From: Asaia prunellae JCM 25354
GTDB taxonomy: Bacteria > Pseudomonadota > Alphaproteobacteria > Acetobacterales > Acetobacteraceae
Reading direction: 5' to 3'
Length of the DNA stretch: 64,000 nt
Assembly: GCF_000613885.1 (NCBI RefSeq)
Contig: NZ_BAJV01000002.1
Coordinates: 186,001 to 250,000 of the forward strand
Both the position numbers and the translations under genes were made by a program. Below the pieces are notes generated by a model. It saw only the letters and a program-made list of their open reading frames with translations, searched no databases and was not told the origin of the DNA. Of the stretch, positions 1 through 2,705 are shown in pieces (position 1 is the stretch's first letter; each line of letters opens with the position of its first letter).

Positions 1-257
1 CAGTCGATGTACCGTCCGAACCAGAAGATACGCGTTGTATTGGCCGCTCCTGCCAGAGTGGCATCGGTGGGGAGGAGCAGGGCACCCTGACCGGTAGCCA
101 TAGCCACATAGAGGCAGCCGGCGATGATGGGCACTATGCCGTGCGAGAGGCTCATGACCCCTTCGGTTTCCGTACGTCGTTTACCGAGCAGGAGGAGCGC
201 CGTCCCTCCGGCAAACATGATCAGGGCAGTCAGCCATAGAACGGTCTGGGTCATCAT
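1..257 (-). CDS. Microbial (type I) rhodopsin, N-terminal part
   Basis: The reverse strand encodes 86 residues running off the left edge. Helix A lies near residues 5-25 (LWLTALIMFAGGTALLLLG). Helix B lies near 40-63 (HGIVPIIAGCLYVAMATGQG). A loop then leads to FWFGRYIDW at the edge, the start of helix C. This matches the start of the bacteriorhodopsin family, where the Arg and Asp of R-Y-x-D-W are the helix C arginine and the primary proton acceptor. Counting from the first Met they fall at 82 and 85. Family knowledge: a retinal-binding seven-helix membrane protein, usually a light-driven ion pump. The retinal lysine and the rest of the ion-selectivity motif lie outside the window, so pump type is unknown. 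Two adjacent ATGs (257, 254) are possible starts, with only a weak GA-rich ribosome site. Confidence 0.85.
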   Translation of the reverse strand, partial: MMTQTVLWLTALIMFAGGTALLLLGKRRTETEGVMSLSHGIVPIIAGCLYVAMATGQGALLLPTDATLAGAANTTRIFWFGRYID

Positions 258-484
258 CGCTATCTTTCACGCAGAGAAGAGATTGCTGAACGAGTCCTGA
301 CACAAAAGTTGTAGAACTTCCCATCTTGACCGATCTTTTGGGTCCCTTTTTCGATCTGCAGGTCTTTTCCGGACCAGAGATAACTGTCTGGACGCTTCAG
401 GCAGAAACCAGAACAAAAACGGGGTATTTGCACTGGACATTGTCCGGGGCACCGCCTTATCTGCCTGAAACAAGAGGGCGTGAG
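258..484. other. Intergenic region between divergent rhodopsin and parC
   Basis: This 227-base spacer must hold promoters for both divergent genes. I see no convincing -35/-10 pair, RNA gene or repeat. Open frames here are fortuitous. Confidence 0.5.
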
Positions 485-2705
485 ATGAGTCAGGATCTGG
501 CAGGACATATCGAGGATACGAAACTCGCTGATGCGTTGAGCGAGCGATATATCGCCTATGCGATGTCAACCATCATGCGCGTTCCCTGCCGGATGTGCGT
601 GATGGCATGAAGCCGGTCCACAGGCGCATACTCTATGCCATGCAGCAACTGAAACTGGATCCCAGTTCGGGCTTCAAGAAATGTGCCCGGGTAGTTGGTG
701 ATGTTATCGGTAAATTCCATCCCCATGGCGACGCGGCTGTTTATGAGGCACTGGTACGTCTGGCTCAGGATTTTGCTGTGCGCTACCCGCTTGTCGAGGG
801 GCAGGGTAACTTCGGTTCAATCGATGGCGATAATGCGGCTGCCATGCGATATACCGAGTCCCGTCTGACGGAAGTGGCAAAGGCGCTTCTGGAAGGGATC
901 GAGGATGATGCTGTCGATTTCCGCCCGACATATGACAACGAGGATGCAGAGCCTGTTGTCCTGCCAGGTGCTTTCCCGAATCTCCTTGCCAACGGGGCAG
1001 CGGGTATTGCCGTCGGTATGGCTACGTCCATACCACCGCATAATGCCGCAGAAATCTGCCGTGCCGCACGCCATCTGATTGATGACCCCAAGGCGTCTGT
1101 CGAAGCGCTCATGCAGTATATGCCGGGTCCGGATTTTCCGACTGGTGGAGTGCTGATCGAAGAGGCGCAGAGCATACGCAGCGCCTACGAGACGGGGCGA
1201 GGCAGCTTTCGTACCAGAGCACGCTGGGAGGTTGAGCAGGGGCGTTTCGGGACCTGGACAGTTATTGTAAACGAGATCCCCTATCAGGTGCAGAAAGCGC
1301 GTCTGATCGAGCAGATTGCCGAGTTGATGGAGCAGAAGAAACTGCCTCTGCTCGCGGATATACGCGATGAAAGTACGACGGATATCCGTCTTGTTCTCGA
1401 GCCGAAAACCAAGGGAATCGAGCCCGAAGTGCTGATGGAAACGCTTTTCCGCGTTACGGCACTCGAGAGCCGCTTCAGCCTCAACATGAACGTGCTTGAT
1501 GCCAATCGCGTGCCCAGGGTTATGGGACTGCGTGAAGTTATCCAGTCCTGGCTCGACCATCGTGAGATCGTGCTGGTTCGTCGCTCGACCCATCGTCTGG
1601 CTGCCGTTGAACGACGCCTGGAGATTCTTGAAGGCTTTCTGGCAGTTTATCTCAATCTTGATGAGGTCATCAGGATCATTCGCGAGAGCGATGAGCCCAA
1701 GCCGGAACTGATGCGCGTTTTCAGCCTGACAGATCTTCAGGCAGAATATGTGCTGAACATGCGTCTGCGTTCACTGCGCAGATTGGAGGAAATCGAGCTC
1801 CGCAAGGAGCGTGATGCGCTTCTGAAGGAAAAGGCGAGTCTTCAGGGATTGCTTGGCAGCGAGCGCAAGCGCTGGACCCGTATCGGCAAGGAACTCGAAG
1901 CGACTGCAATCAGGTTTGGTGATGGCGCACTTGGTGCCCGTCGTACGCAGATTGCGGCACCTCCTGCACCCATAGATCTGAGTGTTGCCATTCAGGTCGA
2001 TCGTGAACCGCTGACGGTACTCCTGTCACGCGAAGGCTGGGTGCGAGCGGTAAAGGGACATGGCATTGATCCTGAGAGTCACAAGTTCAAGGAAGGTGAC
2101 GCCTTCGGACTTTCGCTCGAATGTCAGAGCACGGAGCGCCTGTGTCTTCTGGCGAGCGGGGGTCGTGTCTTTACGCTCAAGGCGGCCGACCTGCCGCGTG
2201 GGCGCGGTTTCGGCCAGCCGATCCGCGTACTGGCTGATCTGCCTCAGGACGAAGACATCGTTGCGTTTTTTGTGCTTGATGAAAACGGACGTCATATCCT
2301 TGCCAGTGAGAGCGGGCGTGGTCTGATCATACGTGATGTCGATATGGCGGCAGAAAAACGGACGGGTAAACAGGTACTGACCCTTCGGATGGTGATCGTG
2401 CCTCATTCTGTGTTGCCCTTACCGGCGATCAGGTCGTTACCATGGGAAGTAACCGAAAAGCACTTTCCTTCGCTGTATCGGCCTTGCCGGAAATGACCAA
2501 GGGTATGGGGGTAACCATACAGAAATTGCCACCTGGTCAGCGTCTCGTCGATCTGCGCGTTTTTTCAAGCGAGGAGGGACTGGTGTGGCATGAAGGGCAG
2601 AAGCCACGTAATGCAGCAGATCTTGCCCTGATTTCAGGCAAGAGAGCCGATCAGGGCAAGGCAGCGCCGCAATGGATGACACGCAAGGCGGTCACCCGGA
2701 GCTGA
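485..2705 (+). CDS. parC: DNA topoisomerase IV subunit A, frame broken twice
   Basis: ParC is the DNA-cutting subunit of topoisomerase IV, which unlinks daughter chromosomes. The frame opens with [31 protein letters not shown], continues in a second frame from [16 protein letters not shown], and ends in a third ([15 protein letters not shown] to the stop). The catalytic tyrosine is in AMRYTESRL. The C-terminal beta-pinwheel follows to about residue 740, normal length for alphaproteobacterial ParC. The breaks, near 578 and 2387, are each cured by adding one base (ATG-gCG-CGT and CGg-GAT). Both sides match the family without a gap, so sequence errors are likely. The quinolone-determining segment reads [10 protein letters not shown], with alanine at the position of E. 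coli Ser80. ATG 485 is chosen because the family N-terminus begins there. Confidence 0.93.

Follow-up and report, generated by a model that had tools for sequence, protein, structure and literature searches.

The closest described counterpart of the locus reported here is the rhodopsin/beta-carotene 15,15'-monooxygenase operon of Asaia bogorensis NBRC 16594, published in 2015 (PMC4596401). The passage of that paper on NBRC 16594 does not discuss the motif of the rhodopsin, its clade or the carotenoid genes. Outside Asaia, the nearest points of comparison are the DTG rhodopsins, which, in the account that PMC10154332 gives of Harris et al., have D85, T89, a glycine at 96 and a histidine in helix B at the position of T46 (bacteriorhodopsin, BR, numbering), and which are said there to pump without the carboxylic donor at BR96. 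The same account tells that PspR and PaR are proton pumps, that MpR of Methylobacterium populi has been reported to pump Na+/Li+, and that E32, E33 and D35 are given for most MpR-like proteins; M. populi BJ001, which belongs to the species that MpR comes from, is among the strains treated in PMC10448405.

Our window is a stretch of 64,000 nucleotides from Asaia prunellae JCM 25354 (G000:C37:186001-250000, in a genome of 3.18 Mb and 38 contigs), and a rhodopsin gene runs over its left edge. The 5' third of the 237-residue protein is encoded inside the window on the reverse strand, where positions 3-257 translate to 85 residues, the last four being RYID. An earlier note on this DNA had read R-Y-I-D-W here; RYID stands in the window, while the tryptophan had to be inferred, as only two bases of its codon lie inside the window, and the flanking sequence bears that inference out. 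The same note had named an early stop or frameshift beyond the edge, or loss of the retinal lysine in helix G, as grounds for giving up its reading, but the flank contains neither interruption and the lysine is kept at BR216. The protein scores 146.4 bits against the Pfam Bac_rhodopsin profile (cut-off 24.6). The window-edge gene is a complete, conserved microbial (type 1) rhodopsin (Table 1). A pseudogene or an edge artefact is ruled out, as the gene is intact.

Table 1. Coordinates of the rhodopsin locus and of the carotenoid gene cluster; window positions are counted from the first letter of the stretch.
Feature	Location	Strand	Remarks
Rhodopsin gene, 5' part	window 1..257	-	codons 1-85 plus two bases; D85 codon at 3-5; remainder outside the window
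Whole rhodopsin gene	G000:C37:185544-186257 = L002:9544-10257	-	237 aa, without internal stop
Brp/Blh gene	L002:8601-9527	-	TTG start as listed, true start unsure
Intergenic region between divergent rhodopsin and parC genes	window 258..483	.	parC start at 484 by eye
Conserved block upstream of rhodopsin	window 291..313	-	TACAACTTTTGTGTCAGGACTCG on the - strand; largely kept in 9 aligned Asaia/Swaminathania loci
parC-like gene (topoisomerase IV subunit A), conserved neighbor	window 484..2705	+	named by eye; several frames in this assembly
Candidate C30 carotenoid cluster	L095:6049-13973 (G000:C26)		iron alcohol dehydrogenase, aldehyde dehydrogenase, two CrtI-family, acyltransferase-like and glycosyltransferase-like genes

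The locus has the two-gene arrangement of the NBRC 16594 operon, in another species. A Brp/Blh gene, for which the earlier note had proposed a search, follows the rhodopsin gene on the same strand and scores 125 bits against Pfam BCD and 165 bits against TIGR03753. Just downstream of the rhodopsin, a BCD match is present in all nine Asaia genomes and in Swaminathania (in two pieces in G307). With recO beyond Blh and parC on the opposite side, both on the + strand and both named by eye, the order parC/rhodopsin/blh/recO is identical in 9/9 loci, and the rhodopsin of A. bogorensis GD-01, at the same site between parC and recO, is 89% identical to the A. prunellae copy. A protein search returned relatives at 85-91% identity from Asaia platycodi, A. 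bogorensis, A. krungthepensis, A. siamensis, A. lannensis, A. astilbis, Asaia sp. W19 and Swaminathania salitolerans. In seven of the eight other genomes of the genus, the rhodopsin scores equal those of the named Asaia records. The note's reading, a rhodopsin gene of the pump type in acetic acid bacteria, therefore stands, carried by an intact Asaia gene with its retinal lysine and an adjoining blh. Its remark that such rhodopsins are not usual in this group needs correcting: the A. bogorensis operon has been in print since 2015, which is also why the gene is not new for the genus, and of 397 Acetobacteraceae genomes, 30 match Bac_rhodopsin. Overall, the observation of the note is confirmed and its interpretation partly supported.

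Two further features of the locus bear on how it is read. The conserved block upstream of the rhodopsin gene is possibly a promoter or regulator site; inspection by eye matched it to no known promoter or regulator. The parC-like frame, which is split in this assembly, aligns unbroken over 598 residues in seven of eight relatives; dnaE, rpsB and hpnC also look broken (dnaE and rpsB by eye; L002 at about 2000 and about 6600, L084 at about 8500), and all these broken frames are probably draft sequencing errors.

Conservation differs along the locus. Identity to the A. prunellae proteins is 87-96% for parC, 74-85% for recO and 85-91% for the rhodopsin, but 47-53% for Blh. The rhodopsin has a median dN/dS of 0.062 over 36 pairs and Blh one of 0.236 over 28 pairs, at high synonymous differences (medians of 0.62 and 0.69 per site, respectively). 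By these ratios, the rhodopsin is under purifying selection. The His motifs of Blh (PHGALDGE, HFG, HxxxH and LTLPH) are kept in all eight aligned proteins, one of them from Swaminathania; A. platycodi was left out of the Blh comparisons because its Blh frame is broken. The fast evolution of Blh could mean relaxed function. It is in part general, since a Pantoea/Sphingomonas pair shows the same (rhodopsins 71% and Blh 47% identical).

Aligned with bacteriorhodopsin, the Asaia protein has R82, Y83, D85, W86, T89, D115, W182, D212 and K216, and so contains the acceptor Asp85, Arg82 and Asp212 of outward proton pumps. The retinal lysine, K220 of the protein, is invariant in 12 aligned rhodopsins. 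Substitutions are found at D96 (Gly), T46 (His, H39), E194 (Asp) and E204 (Ser). In the alignment, a carboxylic donor at BR96 is absent, with glycine in Asaia and serine in Swaminathania. The three-residue pump motif that the earlier note wanted checked is thus present, but as D-T-G instead of the usual D-T-D/E, the helix-C donor being the part that is missing. With D85, T89, a glycine at 96 and H39 in helix B at the position of BR T46, the protein is by its residues a rhodopsin of the D-T-G kind with a helix-B histidine. An AlphaFold2 model built from 15 sequences has seven helices (mean pLDDT 85.3, pTM 0.84); its best match in the PDB is the DTG rhodopsin of P. putida (7w74, TM-score 0.87), followed by SpaR (8anq, 0.85). 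An anion pump was set aside, as Asp85 is present.

We favor a model, on balance a probable one, in which rhodopsin and blh form an operon for a light-driven outward cation pump, most likely of H+, that depends on a carotenoid from outside cut by Blh. The two genes would be co-transcribed. The seven-helix protein would bind retinal at Lys216 (BR numbering), light would isomerize the retinal, and the Schiff-base proton would pass to Asp85 and then to the outside. Because the helix-C donor Asp96 is a glycine, reprotonation from the cytoplasm would probably proceed via His39 in helix B, the route suggested for other DTG rhodopsins. Blh would cleave beta-carotene to retinal, and this beta-carotene, or another provitamin-A carotenoid, would most likely come from plant, nectar or fruit. 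We invoke carotenoid uptake because the searches, for the kinds they covered, turned up neither a phytoene synthase nor a lycopene cyclase in Asaia; no gene for the uptake itself was identified.

The genes for making beta-carotene are where the Asaia genomes depart from self-sufficient rhodopsin phototrophy. Blh is present, and of the crt genes that the earlier note wished to see, CrtI-family members occur in a C30-like cluster of A. prunellae, but crtB and lycopene cyclase were not found by the models searched. Each of the nine Asaia genomes has two loci matching PF00494 (SQS_PSY), close together, one of them in two pieces in A. prunellae, where they sit with hpnA, hpnE and squalene-hopene cyclase genes. 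The HpnD proteins of A. prunellae (317.6 bits), G149 and Swaminathania all exceed the cut-off; the remaining seven Asaia HpnD proteins are 84-91% identical to the A. prunellae one. Eight HpnC proteins, of which the matched part only was scanned, score 242-249 bits, just under the cut-off of 250.45 and far above the next family; the broken A. prunellae copy and the second SQS_PSY protein of Swaminathania were left out of this scoring. Judged by these scores and neighbors, the Asaia SQS_PSY loci are the hopanoid-type HpnC/HpnD pair only. A phytoene synthase (a third, CrtB-type SQS_PSY locus) was not found in any of the nine Asaia genomes, including the single-contig 3.2 Mb genome G149. We limit this statement to Asaia, extending it to Swaminathania with a limit, because extra SQS_PSY genes in genomes with MpR-like rhodopsins outside Asaia (for example G086, G132 and G358) were left unclassified.

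The searches for a cyclase, which covered TIGR01790, CrtYcd and PF05834 and left out CruA/CruP types as well as GGPP synthase (crtE), gave a similar picture. Across ten Asaia/Swaminathania genomes, the best match to the CrtY model TIGR01790 has 29.2 bits (cut-off 209.5), with no match of cyclase length; the CrtYcd model matched in 0/30 genomes, and an RPE65-type oxygenase in none of the ten. PF05834 (Lycopene_cycl) is exceeded at its low cut-off in 9/9 Asaia genomes but also in 9/14 controls, and the matches listed cover at most 158 of 380 positions. The best of them (33.6 bits, 158 of 380 positions; L112, in A. prunellae) fits Trp_halogenase better, at 52.7 bits. When six of the proteins behind PF05834 or TIGR01790 matches of this sort were scanned, L165 proved to be a dihydrolipoyl dehydrogenase, L112 and L161 matched Trp_halogenase, L116 an FAD-NAD(P)-binding domain and L121 a phosphatase-like domain, and L113 gave nothing at the thresholds used. 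By profile score, the proteins scanned resemble other enzymes more closely, where anything fits. The searches did recover SQS_PSY and a cyclase-like match near other Acetobacteraceae rhodopsins (G284, G018, G017 and G105).

It is nevertheless conceivable, if somewhat unlikely, that the same pump runs on wholly self-made retinal, with an unrecognized phytoene synthase and lycopene cyclase feeding Blh. A UHPLC-MS study reports beta-carotene in A. bogorensis ISD1 and alpha-carotene in A. lannensis, with neurosporene as the main pigment, all of them C40 carotenoids (PMC6151773), and the authors call for gene work to confirm the pathways. If these pigments are right, the unrecognized synthase and cyclase exist and uptake is unneeded. 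The report thus speaks against beta-carotene from outside; we set it against the absent synthase without discounting it. An unrecognized cyclase may also be among the weak FAD-enzyme matches to the Lycopene_cycl profile, and Aurantimicrobium minutum holds retinal without known cleavage genes (PMC7734400). What counts the other way is that a third SQS_PSY locus is lacking in nine genomes out of nine, one of them a single contig, that no TIGR01790 match above 30 bits turned up in Asaia and no CrtYcd match in the 30 genomes searched, and that the best weak matches are better fits to other enzymes (halogenase-like, dihydrolipoyl dehydrogenase). We found no discussion of the missing beta-carotene genes of Asaia in the open-access literature searched. 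What appears to be new here is a rhodopsin-Blh pair in a genus without recognized beta-carotene genes (9/9 Asaia genomes).

A comparison across Acetobacteraceae places this absence in context. The 30 genomes with a Bac_rhodopsin match, among the 397 drawn, include all nine of Asaia. An MpR-like rhodopsin is present in 22, in 21 of them as the sole type; seven carry one that is SpaR-like or of another type (G360, G018, G026, G284, G105, G260 and G017, the last with both types and counted with the seven). TIGR01790 exceeds 30 bits in 0/21 genomes with an MpR-like rhodopsin only, whereas all seven others reach 67-325 bits, a score that exceeds the cut-off in three. For a lycopene cyclase match above 60 bits, the contrast among these 28 rhodopsin genomes is therefore 0/21 versus 7/7, where four of the seven "cyclases", at 67-94 bits, lie under the cut-off of 209.5 and were assigned from the adjacent SQS_PSY, BCD and rhodopsin genes. 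As the 28 genomes are not independent, we also counted by genus, which gives 0/7 versus 6/6 (Fisher p ~0.0006) with genus g18, which has both types, left out. Five of the 21 MpR-like genomes are less than 90% complete: G128 (85%), G163 (73%), G206 (67%) and, within Asaia, G307 (85%) and G286 (88%). BCD is found in 25/30 rhodopsin genomes; among those with an MpR-like rhodopsin it is missing from the incomplete G128, G163 and G206. G084 and G148 were left out of both groups. Their rhodopsins (L058:1444-2160 and L059:1435-2157, respectively) lack the retinal lysine, with Asn in its place (LADIVNELTF and LADLVNELTF, by eye), and have Ala for Asp85 (RYAAW); neither genome has a BCD match.

The choice of H+ as the ion in our preferred model is tentative, because MpR is reported to pump Na+/Li+ (PMC10154332) and 8xx8, a relative with TTG, bears the title of a halorhodopsin. 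Our tree has 59 rows (56 of 70 distinct sequences plus three typed references) and leaves out 14 sequences, two lysine-less and the others distant or redundant. In it, the ten Asaia/Swaminathania rows group with two Methylobacterium plasmid rhodopsins (L086 and L087) and 12 other Acetobacteraceae rhodopsins (UFBoot 93, SH-aLRT 97). The sister clade comprises SpaR, PspR, the Pantoea and Sphingomonas proteins and one Acetobacteraceae copy (100/99), and the two clades join at 99/98. On this topology we call the Asaia rhodopsin "MpR-like", grouping with Methylobacterium rhodopsins, at a support of 93 that is just under the usual 95 and with M. populi MpR itself outside the tree.

This position is one argument that the Asaia protein, like MpR, pumps Na+/Li+ and not H+, and E32, shared by Asaia and the MpR-like pattern, is another. 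Of that pattern, Methylobacterium L086 has all three residues, but Asaia has G33 and M35 in place of E33 and D35 and so departs in part from what is given for most MpR-like DTG/DTS rhodopsins. The N-D-Q motif of known sodium pumps is likewise absent from the alignment, and the claim for MpR is second-hand, via PMC10154332. We regard a Na+/Li+ pump as unlikely. A sodium pump of the NDQ kind was itself set aside, the motif being D-T-G.

The relatives differ in how closely they resemble the Asaia pair. Methylobacterium L086 shares D-T-G, the helix-B histidine, E32, an adjoining blh and the tree clade, at 44% identity. The pair may be mobile there, as its plasmid (NZ_CP099615.1, 40 kb; L086:6001-10151) carries genes for an integrase and an IS91 transposase next to rhodopsin and blh. 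The SpaR/PspR/PaR clade (8anq, 7w74) has D-T-G or D-T-S, the helix-B histidine and a similar fold (TM 0.85-0.87), and in its Pantoea and Sphingomonas members blh adjoins the rhodopsin, as in Asaia; it differs in being a separate clade, with 34% (Pantoea) and 32% (Sphingomonas) identity to Asaia. A "mirror proteorhodopsin" of the SpaR kind was rejected, because H32/H33 of SpaR are V34/M35 in Asaia and the protein falls outside that clade. The "Glycilhalorhodopsin" of Salinarimonas soli (8xx8) also has Gly in the donor place but, as a TTG rhodopsin, has Thr for D85 and Gln for the helix-B histidine in the alignment. Since 8xx8 is the solved structure closest to the L086 rhodopsin (2.1e-48), more than one change of transported ion may have occurred in this part of the family. 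A class-wide protein search of 385 genomes matched 20, with only distant rhodopsins outside the A. prunellae genome (best 48.9 bits, 32% identity), and the origin of the gene is therefore not shown by that search.

That the protein is a light sensor instead of a pump is very unlikely. Its usual proton donor is missing, and pumping is our inference; however, no transducer gene neighbors the rhodopsin in any of the nine loci, all of which place it with blh, parC and recO (the last two named by eye), and the DTG relatives PspR and PaR pump protons (PMC10154332).

Lastly, the A. prunellae genome contains a cluster that is likely a C30 carotenoid pathway and a candidate source of the pigment of this strain. 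Its two neighboring CrtI-family genes (498 and 396 bits) are preceded by the aldehyde dehydrogenase gene and followed by the acyltransferase-like and glycosyltransferase-like genes. Similar C30 pathway genes are described for Methylobacterium extorquens and for staphyloxanthin (PMC10448405), and by this analogy we infer that the CrtI-family pair is CrtN/CrtP, starting from squalene; crtB of M. extorquens is described as having no role in its pigment (PMC10448405). Our search for such a cluster covered the A. prunellae genome only. It is scarcely credible that Blh cuts this C30 carotenoid of the cell to give the opsin a chromophore other than retinal, because, for all that the cluster is there and Blh diverges fast in Asaia, Blh keeps its BCD model match and His motifs, retinal cannot come from an acyclic C30 carotenoid, and we know of no precedent for an opsin with a C30-derived chromophore.

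Taken together, these observations make the gene itself ordinary for Asaia, where it is in print for one species, and leave a mismatch as the part worth following: a conserved opsin and a retinal-forming enzyme set against no recognized route to beta-carotene. Under our preferred model of an outward pump supplied with carotenoid from outside, we tentatively suggest, as something possible, that Asaia, and perhaps the whole MpR-like clade of Acetobacteraceae and Methylobacterium, runs retinal light capture on host-derived (plant or insect) carotenoid. If such salvage is true, these inhabitants of flowers, fruit and insects would depend on pigments of the host for their use of light. The alternative to salvage is that the mismatch points to an unknown carotenoid pathway, and both can be tested directly, as the strains are culturable.
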